A stretch of 64,000 nt of DNA from Myroides odoratus DSM 2801 (GTDB taxonomy: Bacteria; Bacteroidota; Bacteroidia; Flavobacteriales; Flavobacteriaceae), in contig NZ_CM001437.1 in NCBI RefSeq assembly GCF_000243275.1, positions 1,763,782 through 1,827,781 on the forward strand, written 5' to 3'. The notes beneath the pieces are model-generated. The model worked only from the letters and a program-made list of their open reading frames with translations. It ran no database searches and was not told the DNA's origin. This document shows positions 2,630-7,326 of this stretch, piece after piece. Position 1 is the stretch's first letter, and each line of letters opens with the position of its first letter. Made by a program: the position numbers and the translations under genes.

Positions 2630-3589
2630 TTATTCTTCATTAATTGTCTTACGTATATCTGTATACCTAAAATAGATAAATGAATTCATTACGTTAAATT
2701 CTAATGGATTATCTTCAGTAGGACCTATCCCCAAGAAGAAAACATATGCTTCATATTCACTATCTTTTGTATCAAGTCTTAAACGTTCCAAAGTACTATT
2801 AAACACATTATTATAATTATTTCTTATCCTAGTCACCATTGCTTTACTTAATCCTTTTTTCTGTAAGATCACTTTATACCCCTCATTTCCATTAGTTCTA
2901 TAACGATATAATTGAAATTCCATTTTATCCTCATCTTCATATAATGCTCCACTTTTAATCAACTTTATAGGAGCATAAAAAATTTTATTATCAATATAAG
3001 GCTTATGATTTTTACCTGACGTTATATGTCTAAATAAATATTTATATTCAATCTTATTACCTAATACTTCTATTTCTACATCTCTATTTCGTTCAAAACC
3101 GAGATAGAAATCAACTATTCTTTTAATTGAACTTACTTTACTATTCCGTTTCCCATCTTCTGGATCAAAAGACACCTCATCATTATATCCAACTCTTCCC
3201 GCGCTAGTCGTAGTCCCTTCATCCTCGTTATGTTTCTTTACTTCTACTACACTTTCTTCAATATCATCAGAAACTTCGGGCATTACTAATAAAGAAGGAT
3301 ACCCAACAACTTTTAATTCCTTAACTGTTAACTTATGGTTTTTAGCTTTACCTATAAGTCCATTTAACAGCGCTTCTTCACAGGCTTCAGCATGTTCTTG
3401 TCTAGGACTTATACTAAAGTAGGGTATTCTTTTGTTTGTCAATTTATAACTATTAGCTACAACTGCCACTCTACAATTTTCAGAAGGGCATTGAAACAAT
3501 ACATCATCTTTTGACTTATCTTTCATAATTGTAGGCAGATCTACCGCCCAAATGACTTCTTGAGTATCTACTCGGAATGCTCTATCCAT
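2630..3589 (-). CDS. Unrecognised protein with N-terminal Cys/His cluster
   Basis: 319 residues, not recognised. Near the N-terminus Cys34, Cys39, His66 and Cys70 form a CPxxxC ... H-x3-C pattern around an aromatic stretch (RIPYFS). This resembles the zinc-ribbon-like start of CoiA-type and other DNA-associated proteins; the comparison is inference. Residues 100-160 are acidic and low in hydrophobics, so probably a linker; the C-terminal half looks like a mixed alpha/beta domain. There is no signal peptide or membrane segment. The gene is AT-rich like its two island neighbours and unlike the core genes. It lies downstream of, and in the same direction as, the 485-residue gene, with a 167-bp gap. 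Confidence 0.75.
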   Translation of the reverse strand: MDRAFRVDTQEVIWAVDLPTIMKDKSKDDVLFQCPSENCRVAVVANSYKLTNKRIPYFSISPRQEHAEACEEALLNGLIGKAKNHKLTVKELKVVGYPSLLVMPEVSDDIEESVVEVKKHNEDEGTTTSAGRVGYNDEVSFDPEDGKRNSKVSSIKRIVDFYLGFERNRDVEIEVLGNKIEYKYLFRHITSGKNHKPYIDNKIFYAPIKLIKSGALYEDEDKMEFQLYRYRTNGNEGYKVILQKKGLSKAMVTRIRNNYNNVFNSTLERLRLDTKDSEYEAYVFFLGIGPTEDNPLEFNVMNSFIYFRYTDIRKTINEE

Positions 3590-3756: not shown

Positions 3757-5214
3757 TTATTCACTCACATATAATATTTCCTCTTCAAACCAATCACTAC
3801 CATTTTTAATGCTCTGTATTTCATAAATTCCATCCAACCTAAAATGTCTAATTTTACCTTTTCTTAACAGACAATTTGTTTCTAACAAAATACTGACACT
3901 ACTATGGTGTAAAATTGTATTTGAAGTAGTCACCTTTATCTGTTCTGAATCAATAGATATACCAACCATATTATTATCTAAATTTAATTTTATAGAGAAC
4001 ATATTATATTCACTAGATAAAATATCCTTTAATTTTTTTTCGTTATTATTCATCGTTTTTCTATTTAAACCAATATCTTCTATCAATTTATTTTTATCTG
4101 ACACAAATAAACTAACCTCCCGAACTTTAATTACACGTTTTGAAAAACGATTAAATTTATCTGCATACGAAATATAATAGTATTCCCCCGCTTTAAATTC
4201 AAAACTAAATATACTAGTACTTCTTCTATTTAAATAATCAGGAAACCTAGTCCCCCAGAGTTCATTATCAGGTATCTTATTTATTTGGCTAACTAAAATA
4301 GAATCTTTTTTATTTTTTAATAAATCATCCACTAACGCCATGTAGAAGTAATGCTTAAATGTAATATCCTCAATTTGAACTAAAGTGTTTCTAATTTCTG
4401 TTTTCCCAACATCCAAGCCAATCTCTTCTAATTCAAAAGGTTCCTTTAATTTAATCTGATGATAATAATTACTATCTATATAACTTGAATAATCCTCTAG
4501 CAAATTTCTTTTATCTGAATTTTCTCCTACCTCTAAACCTAAATCAATTTTATAAAGTGTATCAACCTTTAGATACTCTTCAGAGTACGTTTTTAATTGA
4601 GAATTAAACCATTTACATTTAAACTCCAATAAGGGCTTACCTTCAATCTGACAAAATTTATTTTTTTCATCATAAAATCTATAACCAATCACCGTCATTA
4701 CTGGAGGTAAAAAATCTAAATGATTCGTAACTATCAATTCTCCATTATCTTTTTCTCTATTAATTTTCTCTTTATGTAATTCTATATCTACAGATTTAAG
4801 AACCACCTTTACATTAAAATAATTACTTTTAATATGAGTCTCAATCTCTTTTACAGTTATCTCTTTATCTTGAGATTCTAATGTTTTCTTCTTATTTATT
4901 TCAAAATTAATATCTATATCATGAAGTAATTTTTTTCGCTCTTCTGCTAAAACTTTATCTTCACACTTTACTAGATCGAGACTACTTATTCTTTTACTTT
5001 CATATTTACCAGTTTTTGAATTATAATAAACACATTCTAATATTTCACCTATTTTCTCTCTCGTTATGGAGTCAAAATATTTATTTTCTGTTCGCTTATT
5101 CACAACCATCAAAGGAGAAGTATAATCTGCATATCCCCCAATTTTAATATTTTGATTTCTAGAAGTATAAGGATGCGTTTTAAAAACAACAACATCACCA
5201 AAGTTAAAATACAT
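3757..5214 (-). CDS. Unrecognised 485-residue protein of the RT island
   Basis: Not recognised. The N-terminal 80 residues begin FGDVVVFKTHPYTS and are rich in short beta-prone segments with Gly turns; they could be a small SH3-like barrel (inference). The rest is highly charged and Lys/Glu-rich, with no membrane segment, signal peptide or familiar nucleotide-binding motif. Codon use is strongly AT-biased. Its ATG at 5214 is about 28 bp from a perfect minus-strand -7 box that shares a palindrome with the promoter of the RNA-RT unit, so it is transcribed divergently from the RT. That shared promoter suggests, but does not show, a common role. Confidence 0.75.
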   Translation of the reverse strand: MYFNFGDVVVFKTHPYTSRNQNIKIGGYADYTSPLMVVNKRTENKYFDSITREKIGEILECVYYNSKTGKYESKRISSLDLVKCEDKVLAEERKKLLHDIDINFEINKKKTLESQDKEITVKEIETHIKSNYFNVKVVLKSVDIELHKEKINREKDNGELIVTNHLDFLPPVMTVIGYRFYDEKNKFCQIEGKPLLEFKCKWFNSQLKTYSEEYLKVDTLYKIDLGLEVGENSDKRNLLEDYSSYIDSNYYHQIKLKEPFELEEIGLDVGKTEIRNTLVQIEDITFKHYFYMALVDDLLKNKKDSILVSQINKIPDNELWGTRFPDYLNRRSTSIFSFEFKAGEYYYISYADKFNRFSKRVIKVREVSLFVSDKNKLIEDIGLNRKTMNNNEKKLKDILSSEYNMFSIKLNLDNNMVGISIDSEQIKVTTSNTILHHSSVSILLETNCLLRKGKIRHFRLDGIYEIQSIKNGSDWFEEEILYVSE

Positions 5215-5241: not shown

Positions 5242-5260
5242 CAAATATAATTTATATTTG
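5242..5260. promoter_or_regulatory. Back-to-back promoter palindrome (divergent -7 boxes)
   Basis: A perfect 19-bp palindrome with arms CAAATATAA and TTATATTTG around one central base. Each arm contains TATATTTG, a perfect TAnnTTTG element: minus strand 5249-5242 towards the 485-residue gene, plus strand 5253-5260 towards the RT. On the plus strand the predicted start site falls at about 5264-5267, exactly where the 5' arm of the putative RNA's terminal stem begins. Confidence 0.65.
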
Positions 5261-5264
5261 TACA

Positions 5265-5684
5265 AACTGCGAATAAAAGCGATATTTACGTTTGTGTGGA
5301 TTAAAGACATTTTACATGTCTACTTTTTTGCATAGAGGCAATAAAGGCAACAAAATCATAATTTCTTTACAAGTCAAGTCTTTCTTGATATTTATTTCTT
5401 TACCTCTATAGTGGCATACATACCACCAGGAGAAGGAAGAACAAATCATAGATAAGATTTCTAGTAAAGTAACTATTGTGTCTATAGAAAGGTCTTTCCC
5501 TAAATAAAGCTTTAGGAAGATTGATATTATTGTTATTATTAGCTCCATAATTTGGGGGATATATTTATAATTAGTTATTTTAGATACAAAGATAATCGTC
5601 AGTCCAATGACCCAGTTACTGGGTACTGATCCAACCACTACAAGGTGTATGTAGTATCATTAGCGTTATTGTTTATTCGCAGTT
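5265..5684 (+). ncRNA. Putative structured RNA upstream of the reverse transcriptase
   Basis: The two ends pair perfectly over 13 bp: AACTGCGAATAAA (5265-5277) with TTTATTCGCAGTT (5672-5684). The stem continues after a 2-nt bulge with CGATA (5280-5284) against TATTG (5667-5671). Local hairpins inside include 5305-5310/5316-5321, 5332-5338/5403-5409, 5493-5504/5511-5520 (2-nt bulge), a two-part stem 5599-5603 plus 5610-5615 against 5619-5624 plus 5625-5629, and 5637-5642/5650-5655. A perfect -7 box lies just before the 5' arm and the RT ATG is 13 nt after the 3' arm. This matches the layout of ncRNA templates in DRT2- and DRT9-type defence RT loci (established for those types). Transcription and use as a template are inference. 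Confidence 0.6.
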
Positions 5685-5697
5685 GATTTTTAAGATT

Positions 5698-7326
5698 ATG
5701 GAAAAACCAATTTGGCTCAAAGAAAAAGGCTATCTTCATCTATCACCTTCATTACAAATCGGCGAGGATTATGAAGAAATTGCCCAAATAATTCAAAATG
5801 AAAAATTTGTAAACAAGTATGCTTTCTATCCCCTAATTCATACCAACATAAAAGATCGAAAATATAAAAAAGGAAACTCTAAAAAGCATACTTTTGATGA
5901 CAGAAGTCACACACATTACGATATCCAAACAAAAAAACCAATCAGAAATGCTAAAATTCGTCCTTTACACTATGCAAGTCATTTTGATGCATTAGTATAT
6001 AGCTACTATGCTCACATCCTAAATGAAAAGTACATTAAAAAACTAGAGCAAGAACCTTTGTTAAATGAGGCTATTACTGCCTATCGAAAAATATTAGTTA
6101 ATAAAAATTCTACTAGTGGCAAAAGTAATATCCACTTTGCAAAAGAATGTTTTGACGAAATAACATTTAGAGCAGATAACTCAGAGAATGTACTCGTTTT
6201 GGCTTTTGACTTAAAGAGTTTCTTCTCATCTTTAGACCATAAATATTTAAAAGAAAGATGGGCCTGGTTAATTGAAGAGGAAAAATTACCTAAAGATCAT
6301 TATAATGTTTTTAAATCTTGTACAAACTTTAGCTATGTTCTACTTGATGATCTTCGTCTAAAAAAAACAAAACAAGGGGGCAAAAAATTGGGTTTTGATG
6401 AGTCTAAACTCGCTGATATAAGAAAAAGAAGAGGGTACAGATCGTTCTTCTATGATAATTCAGATTTCCGAAATCAAATCAAAGAAGGGAATTTACCAAT
6501 ATATAAAAATCATTTTTACAGAACCTTACCTAATGGCAAAAAAATTAAAATGGGAATTCCTCAAGGGCTTCCTATAAGTGCCACATTAGCAAATTTATAC
6601 CTTTATGAATTTGATCTAACCATTATAAATACTATTGTAAAGCAACAAGGAGGGTTTTATAGACGTTATTCGGATGATATTTTAATAATTTGTAAACCAG
6701 AAGAAGAAATTCAAATAGAAGAATTTGTACTCAACCTAATCAAAAAATACCATATCAAGATTAGTGAAGAAAAGACAGAAAAATTCTTATTTAAAAAAAA
6801 CACTTATAACAAAGCTCAAGACATACGTTTAGAATGCTTTAAGATTCTTAATTCTTCTAAACACATTTCTTCTCATCTAACCTACTTAGGTTTTGAGTTT
6901 AGAGGGTACAACGTTTGTATAAAGTCCCAAAATCTATCTAAATACTATAGAAAAATAATTTCCACTATAAAAAGAAGAAGTAAGAGAACAATAAAGCTTA
7001 TAGATAGTAATCCTGAAACTAAGATTGCTTTATACATGACCCAACTAAAAAAAGTATATAACCTCCCTATAAAAAAACCAAACACTGACATACAAGAACT
7101 ACGCACATTAAAACGCAAACGTTATAAACTAGTCAAACACTCTGAAGGCTTTTTTCATTTTGAACATTTCCCCATAAAAGATAAAAAACAAGCTAACTAT
7201 TATAGCTATGTACTCCGTTGCTGCTCAACTTTTGAAACCAATAGTTTTAAAAAACAGGTAAGAAAAAGAAAACATATCGCTTATACTGCCATTAATAAAC
7301 ATTTTACTATTAACACAAAAAAGTAA
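5698..7326 (+). CDS. Reverse transcriptase of the UG/Abi (DRT-like) type
   Basis: 542 residues from the ATG at 5698. An in-frame TTG at 5683 lies inside the RNA stem and is rejected as start. RT motifs are complete: FDLKSFFSSLD with catalytic Asp171 (motif A), GIPQGLPISATLAN at 286-299 (motif B), YRRYSDDILI with Asp326-Asp327 (motif C) and TYLGFEF at 395-401. Upstream, AYRK (129-131) and KSNIHFAKECF (142-152) resemble the unknown-group and abortive-infection RTs. There is a long insertion between motifs A and B (about 212-285). The C-terminal 140 residues are basic and helical, with no protease, integrase, maturase or nuclease domain seen. It sits just after a putative structured RNA and has no transposase nearby, so a phage-defence role is the best inference; the exact DRT/UG group is not assigned. 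Confidence 0.9.
   Translation: MEKPIWLKEKGYLHLSPSLQIGEDYEEIAQIIQNEKFVNKYAFYPLIHTNIKDRKYKKGNSKKHTFDDRSHTHYDIQTKKPIRNAKIRPLHYASHFDALVYSYYAHILNEKYIKKLEQEPLLNEAITAYRKILVNKNSTSGKSNIHFAKECFDEITFRADNSENVLVLAFDLKSFFSSLDHKYLKERWAWLIEEEKLPKDHYNVFKSCTNFSYVLLDDLRLKKTKQGGKKLGFDESKLADIRKRRGYRSFFYDNSDFRNQIKEGNLPIYKNHFYRTLPNGKKIKMGIPQGLPISATLANLYLYEFDLTIINTIVKQQGGFYRRYSDDILIICKPEEEIQIEEFVLNLIKKYHIKISEEKTEKFLFKKNTYNKAQDIRLECFKILNSSKHISSHLTYLGFEFRGYNVCIKSQNLSKYYRKIISTIKRRSKRTIKLIDSNPETKIALYMTQLKKVYNLPIKKPNTDIQELRTLKRKRYKLVKHSEGFFHFEHFPIKDKKQANYYSYVLRCCSTFETNSFKKQVRKRKHIAYTAINKHFTINTKK

Follow-up and report, generated by a model that had tools for sequence, protein, structure and literature searches.

A 64,000-nucleotide stretch of the Myroides odoratus DSM 2801 genome, referred to here as the window, carries what we believe, with good confidence, to be a DRT2-type anti-phage system in which a template RNA would be copied by a rolling-circle process into concatemeric cDNA encoding a Neo gene. 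The chromosome appears, as far as its sequence can tell, to be without a Neo gene as such; the gene would be present only as head-to-tail reverse-transcribed copies. The first-pass annotation of this locus was right about a structured RNA and a defense reverse transcriptase (RT), and missed the antisense frame, the repeat-flanked template and the partner gene described below.

Results

Sequence and fold place the reverse transcriptase in the DRT2 family

5698-7326, + strand: DRT2-family RT, 542 aa, YSDD active site (profile, sequence and model matches)

The RT has 542 residues if translation starts at the ATG at 5698, and 547 if it starts at the TTG at 5683. Asp171, Asp326 and Asp327 are unchanged across 25 aligned RT rows and the YSDD motif is intact, bearing out the complete set of RT motifs (Asp171, Asp326-327) seen at first pass. 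The RT scored 421 bits with the PADLOC Drt2 profile (PDLC03757) vs. 81 bits with the next family, UG17, and a second PADLOC test for Drt2/UG2 (PDLC02173) gave 254 bits. Drt2 (NF041746) was also the top NCBIfam profile, but at 306 bits, below its cut-off of 390. The closest solved chain in a phmmer search was that of K. pneumoniae DRT2 (9c0i, E = 1.6e-36); the PDB sequence scores of 129 bits for the DRT2 chain vs. 27 bits for the DRT9 chain speak against membership of DRT9/UG28. An AlphaFold model of the RT (mean pLDDT 75, low in parts) likewise matched 9c0i best (E = 8e-27), followed by DRT9 (E = 6e-11). Residues 6-432 align with residues 8-358 of K. pneumoniae DRT2; the last 110 aa are unaligned, vs. 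67 aa beyond the aligned part in the K. pneumoniae protein.

By these matches, the RT is a divergent DRT2 (UG2) enzyme. The first-pass annotation could match it to no named group, a statement that fails given the wide margin in favor of DRT2/UG2 in PADLOC and in the sequence and fold comparisons with 9c0i. For the same reason, its suggestion of a new branch or new DRT type holds for a branch of DRT2, while a new DRT type is ruled out by PADLOC (421 vs. 81 bits), phmmer and the structure match. The RT also stays far below the cut-offs for group II introns and retrons (62 bits for TIGR04416, cut-off 300; 48 bits for retron St85, cut-off 235), and by these profile scores it does not fall in either group, a placement that would have counted against the first-pass reading.

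The RT tree comprises 54 of the 56 requested rows (L021 and L056 were lost), among which K. pneumoniae DRT2 and the RTs of retrons and group II introns are not represented. The window groups with other Bacteroidota in a clade of 43 rows (support 100/100), outside which lie five plasmid RTs, four of them annotated as drt2. Within this clade, 37 rows including the window make up a nested clade, again with 100/100 support. Several terminal branches of the tree are long. Judged by its RT homologues, the window belongs to Bacteroidota and is nearest to Myroides.

The structured RNA upstream of the RT is very probably its template

5253-5260, + strand: -7 box TATATTTG of the promoter for the structured RNA, fitting the Bacteroidota consensus TAnnTTTG (PMC6847099)
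5265-5684, + strand: structured non-coding RNA made up of a 5′ handle, a template and a 3′ scaffold, its ends placed by the terminal stem
5265-5277, + strand: 5′ arm of terminal stem P1, AACTGCGAATAAA, pairing with 5672-5684
5305-5321, + strand: 5′ handle hairpin H1 (AGACAT...ATGTCT), from fold and alignment
5323-5346, + strand: 5′ handle hairpin H2, 24 nt, a covarying stem just 5′ of the template, from alignment and pair changes
5594-5671, + strand: conserved 3′ scaffold, core CCAATGACCCAGTTACTGGGTACTGATCC, from alignment
5672-5684, + strand: 3′ arm of P1, TTTATTCGCAGTT, exact reverse complement of 5265-5277

The -7 box and the perfect 13-bp stem noted at first pass can both be read directly from the sequence: the arms of P1 are exact reverse complements, and the 3′ arm ends 13 nt before the RT ATG. 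The region from 5260 to 5697 folds with a predicted energy of -105.6 kcal/mol (z = -4.0), and none of 100 shuffled sequences was equally stable, in agreement with the structured RNA proposed earlier. A terminal duplex is predicted in 12/12 close homologues (z = -3.3 to -6.7) and is retained in both the Myroides and the Flavobacterium groups despite differing arm sequences. Alignment of these 12 close loci revealed a conserved H1 and H2 and a conserved 3′ scaffold around a variable middle. In H2, 95 of 108 cells are paired across the 12 sequences, with two-sided changes at 7 of the 9 pairs. The upstream RNA is very probably the template of the RT.

As a raw count, 60 of 94 loci have a TAHHTTTG word somewhere between 230 and 520 nt upstream of the RT; judged by its sequence, this word would fit a conserved promoter of the RNA.

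Short direct repeats flank the proposed template

5354-5593, + strand: proposed reverse-transcription template, 240 nt = 80 codons (repeat scan, phase, join)
5354-5593, - strand: Neo-like endless reading frame, one unit = 80 codons, open through the head-to-tail join
5354-5357, + strand: 5′ jump-site direct repeat AATC at the template start, proposed counterpart of ACA-1
5594-5597, + strand: 3′ jump-site direct repeat AATC, proposed counterpart of ACA-2
5358-5591, + strand: alternative in-phase template unit, 234 nt (repeat scan)
5358-5362, + strand: alternative in-phase 5′ repeat copy ATAAT (repeat scan)

According to PMC12039810, the neo gene of K. pneumoniae DRT2 is encoded by the reverse complement of its ncRNA template. 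A fixed-offset scan for direct repeats identified two TTTA pairs at both borders of the variable region in 9/9 Flavobacterium loci. The inner pair is in phase (9/9), with one copy directly after H2 and the other directly before the scaffold; the outer pair is equally conserved (9/9) and out of phase. A template bounded by the outer TTTA/TACT pair beside H1 was rejected: it has a length of 3n+1 and no endless frame in 9/9 Flavobacterium loci, and the 5′ template end was therefore shifted to the 3′ side of H2. Since the repeat scan displayed the phase, the choice of ends in Flavobacterium was not blind.

In the three Myroides loci, repeats of 4-8 nt delimit units of 234, 207 and 273 nt that are in phase and endless; with these repeats and the inner TTTA pair, all 12 joined units are endless in the reverse complement. 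The AATC/AAT repeats define units of 240 (window), 213 and 282 nt, which are also endless. We prefer the AATC/AAT repeats because all three Myroides units then rebuild the promoter TTG-N20-TAnnTTTG, a choice made after seeing both options. Nearly any in-phase ends in the window leave the frame open (638 of 660 choices were endless), so the exact join is not fixed.

No ACA-1/ACA-2 pair was seen flanking the template when the window was judged by eye; the repeats are AATC in the window and ATTTA in Flavobacterium. From their placement, we suggest that these hold the same position and role as ACA-1 and ACA-2. The ACA form has been described in K. pneumoniae and close relatives, and we therefore call a non-ACA locus a DRT2 variant.

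Assigned units are multiples of three and endless in antisense

Each of the 24 assigned units (22 distinct) has a length divisible by three and is endless in antisense, the 13 lengths ranging from 102 to 282 nt; dinucleotide shuffles of units of the same lengths predict 1.18 endless units of 24. For the window's own unit, 0/400 shuffles were endless. The set consists of nine Flavobacterium, three Myroides and eleven Chryseobacterium-, Epilithonimonas- and Sphingobacterium-type units, plus L098. The ends of the Flavobacterium and Myroides units (12/24) were settled with the phase in view; for the other 12, the end motif was picked from the alignment before the length was computed, that of L039 by its likeness to L032. 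The eleven Chryseobacterium-, Epilithonimonas- and Sphingobacterium-type loci gave a multiple of three and an endless frame in 11/11 cases, the 5′ repeat copy being TTTG, not TTTA, in three of them (L032, L039 and L056), and the 144-nt unit of L098 is likewise a multiple of three and endless. Three further loci have in-phase endless units, and one further repeat pair, in L002 (94 nt), is out of phase. Unit ends were thus assigned in 27 of 94 distinct loci, the other 67 entering the comparison of antisense frame lengths only; many of the compared loci are related to each other.

Other TTTA words at a like distance served as a phase control. They fell into the three phases 32/36/34 (32 of 102 in phase) overall and 6/18/25 (6 of 49 in phase) in Flavobacterium. 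In the eleven Chryseobacterium-, Epilithonimonas- and Sphingobacterium-type loci the split was 26/18/9; with 26 of 53 words in phase, each locus of this group has close to an even chance of giving a multiple of three.

The strand opposite the RNA in the window has a 114-codon stop-free frame (5315-5656), which encodes a hydrophobic peptide, and the antisense unit contains an in-frame ATG at 5546-5548 (- strand). Within the 420 nt upstream of the RT, the longest antisense frame was longer than the longest sense frame in 78 of 94 distinct loci and shorter in 16. Measured against 200 dinucleotide shuffles per locus, the antisense frame reached p<=0.05 in 44/94 loci and p<=0.5 in 92/94. Half of the assigned units (12/24) are endless in the sense direction too. 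Summed over the 36 non-independent pairs of the nine Flavobacterium units, there were 813, 663 and 843 differences at codon positions 1, 2 and 3, respectively; this test is supportive only, since position 2 differs least but positions 1 and 3 are about equal.

Joining Myroides units end to end would rebuild a promoter

5587-5594, - strand: -7 box TATCTTTG of the split Neo promoter (join scan)
5375-5377, - strand: -33 element of the split Neo promoter, a TTG that only head-to-tail joining brings to 20 nt upstream of the -7 box

The Bacteroidota -33/-7 promoter consensus is given as TTTG/TAnnTTTG (PMC6847099). The joined unit of the window reads TTG-N20-TATCTTTG, a promoter of the Bacteroidota type, and TTG-N20-TAnnTTTG spans the join in 3/3 Myroides loci. 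On the chromosomal antisense strand of the same region, TTG-N17-23-TAnnTTTG was not found in any of these three loci; both strands of the 64-kb window together hold three TTG-N20-TAnnTTTG sites. With the -7 box of L001 taken as given, shuffling the repeat end produced a TTG at N19-21 in 1.6% of cases. The -7 boxes of L001 and L014 are identical, and the two loci are therefore not independent for this part of the promoter. The scan covered 23 units, L098 being left out, and was positive in 3/23, all of them Myroides, the window's own branch; the consensus promoter was not found in the nine Flavobacterium units nor in the eleven Chryseobacterium-, Epilithonimonas- and Sphingobacterium-type units.

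In the nine Flavobacterium units, TAnnTTTG recurs inside the coding frame, either exactly or with one mismatch, between 28 and 49 nt from the unit start and with no TTG at promoter distance. This recurrent -7-like word may be a mere reflection of the protein sequence.

Other explanations for the endless frame

Were the cDNA not translated, the cDNA itself or its complex with the RT could be the effector, as in DRT9 (homopolymer) and DRT10 (short tandem repeats). The RT and RNA alone would look identical, other class 2 systems make untranslated repeats (PMC12632851), and 20 of the 23 scanned units gave no consensus promoter. We nonetheless consider this unlikely in view of the 24/24 endless units vs. 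1.18 expected from shuffles, the 13 lengths that are all multiples of three, the lower variability of codon position 2 in the Flavobacterium units, the in-frame ATG of the window's unit and the split promoter in its branch.

It is less plausible still, and in our estimation very improbable, that the antisense frame is an ordinary small chromosomal gene, a regulator or poison that acts without reverse transcription as part of a toxin-antitoxin-like antisense pair. The 114 codons are open on the chromosome as it stands and the peptide is hydrophobic, but a scan of the antisense strand on the chromosome gave no complete consensus promoter in the three Myroides loci, and such a gene leaves both the flanking direct repeats and the conserved RT and RNA scaffold unexplained. 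Finally, we give almost no credence to the idea that the RNA is merely a structural cofactor of the RT, with the open frame and its phase as by-products of base composition or RNA structure: the sequence is AT-rich, 12/24 units are sense-open as well and in-phase TTTA words are common in one group (26/53), but shuffles yield only 1.18 endless units of 24, and 6/49 other TTTA words are in phase in Flavobacterium vs. 9/9 for the assigned pair. A Neo gene made from concatemeric cDNA is the reading we retain.

A divergent WYL-YodC gene accompanies the RT

3757-5214, - strand: partner gene, 485 aa, RT-associated WYL-YodC family, divergent from the RT; many short beta strands predicted

The product of this gene matches the PADLOC family RTasWYL-YodC (PDLC03787) with an E-value of 1.5e-96. 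A WYL-YodC homologue adjoins the RT in 60 of the 80 loci with more than 2.5 kb of upstream sequence and is divergent in 57 of the 60, some distant matches spanning just 51-76 aa; at an RT identity of >=49% it is present in 27/27 of those loci. A model of the partner (pLDDT 81) gave poor matches to small beta-barrels (SETDB1 Tudor, E = 4e-4; BrxR WYL, E = 0.013; TM about 0.1). We know of no tested function for RTasWYL-YodC, and a literature search on WYL genes of defense-associated RTs found no report among the papers within its reach. The partner is probably an infection sensor, or a regulator that restrains the system.

Adjoining the partner gene, 2630-3589 (- strand) has a weak match to PADLOC PD-Lambda-4_B (35.5 bits). 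A homologue with 66% identity lies in the equivalent neighborhood of L014 only (1/80 loci). By sequence, this could possibly be a second defense gene of a small island.

Relatives on mobile elements

Viral contigs contained a single relative (L093, 31% identity) and phages three protein matches (29-31% identity). A DNA-level search of plasmids gave no match; a protein search returned 28 plasmid records, every one below 60% identity. Among five plasmid homologues, four of them annotated as drt2, an ACA unit was seen in one only, with no promoter apparent at its join. This is L105, from a Psychrobacter plasmid and annotated as drt2, in which the same method found an endless 105-nt unit between two ACA words; on sequence grounds, it is a K. 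pneumoniae-like form. In L108, a Rhizobium plasmid, a 42-codon antisense "hypothetical protein" is annotated directly upstream of drt2 (877-1005, - strand), possibly part of a Neo frame that the annotation treats as a gene; a unit bounded by ACA words was not seen upstream of this drt2.

Discussion

The sequence itself shows the RT family, the RNA structure, the flanking repeats, the length in threes, the endless frame, the split promoter and the conservation of the partner; RT-RNA binding, jumping, second-strand synthesis, transcription, toxicity, defense and a role for the partner go beyond it and are proposed. The 5′ handle and 3′ scaffold of the 420-nt RNA would be bound by the RT, which would copy the central 240-nt template. 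On reaching the 5′ end of the template, the growing cDNA would have the complement of AATC at its tip; this would re-pair with the 3′ AATC and copying would restart, with repeated jumping giving rise to a tandem-repeat cDNA. Once this is made double-stranded, the TTG of one repeat would lie 20 nt upstream of TATCTTTG in the next, forming a Bacteroidota housekeeping promoter. The resulting mRNA would encode Neo, a hydrophobic protein that repeats every 80 residues with no stop and would halt the infected cell. The divergent WYL-YodC gene probably acts as a sensor of infection or holds the system in check.

On a broader scale, we lean somewhat towards the existence of a large Bacteroidota branch of DRT2, composed of RT, ncRNA and a divergent WYL-YodC regulator, that writes lineage-specific Neo genes by means of AU-rich jump sites; the Myroides promoter would follow Bacteroidota sigma rules, and in the other genera joining would give rise to some other promoter, which might depend on phage. 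The Neo logic can be read here in a divergent DRT2 clade with other jump sites, templates that range from 102 to 282 nt and a promoter that in one branch is of the host phylum's own type, extending the "gene made on demand" type of defense, as it appears, to a Bacteroidota group. The natural variants make the template-jump rule testable, and a conserved partner gene, unstudied so far, is brought into view. A flanking direct repeat, a length in threes and an endless antisense frame together provide a computational signature for genes absent from the chromosome; if the reading is true, genomes could reveal in this way many genes that are unannotated and come into being only through reverse transcription.

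A literature search on DRT2 and Neo in Bacteroidota, with supplements and most subscription papers outside its reach, found no such report among the matches listed. Tang et al. predicted ncRNAs by covariance models in divergent DRT2 clades, described Neo annotation there as harder and suggested alternative mechanisms (PMC11100668). Units and frames were found here, in a clade that may or may not be among theirs. Like the window's system, DRT9 and DRT10 (for DRT10, PMC12632851) rest on a class 2 UG RT and repeated copying of an ncRNA, but they are described as making homopolymer or short-repeat products with protein priming, and the window RT matches them far less well.

The closest comparison is with K. 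pneumoniae DRT2 as described in PMC12039810 and PMC11100668. Common to both are a UG2 RT, an ncRNA upstream of it that comprises handle, template and scaffold, a template flanked by short repeats, a unit in threes, an endless reverse-complement frame and a promoter built by the join. The jump sites are AATC/ATAAT in the window and ATTTA in its Flavobacterium relatives vs. ACA in K. pneumoniae, the template is 240 vs. 120 nt, and the RT 542 vs. 425 aa. The RNA, at about 420 nt vs. 280 nt for the published DRT2 RNA (PMC12039810), is indeed longer, as the first-pass annotation had thought. The promoter is of the Bacteroidota -33/-7 type vs. -35/-10 in K. pneumoniae, and the window has a divergent WYL-YodC gene, whereas K. 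pneumoniae DRT2 is described in these sources as ncRNA plus RT.
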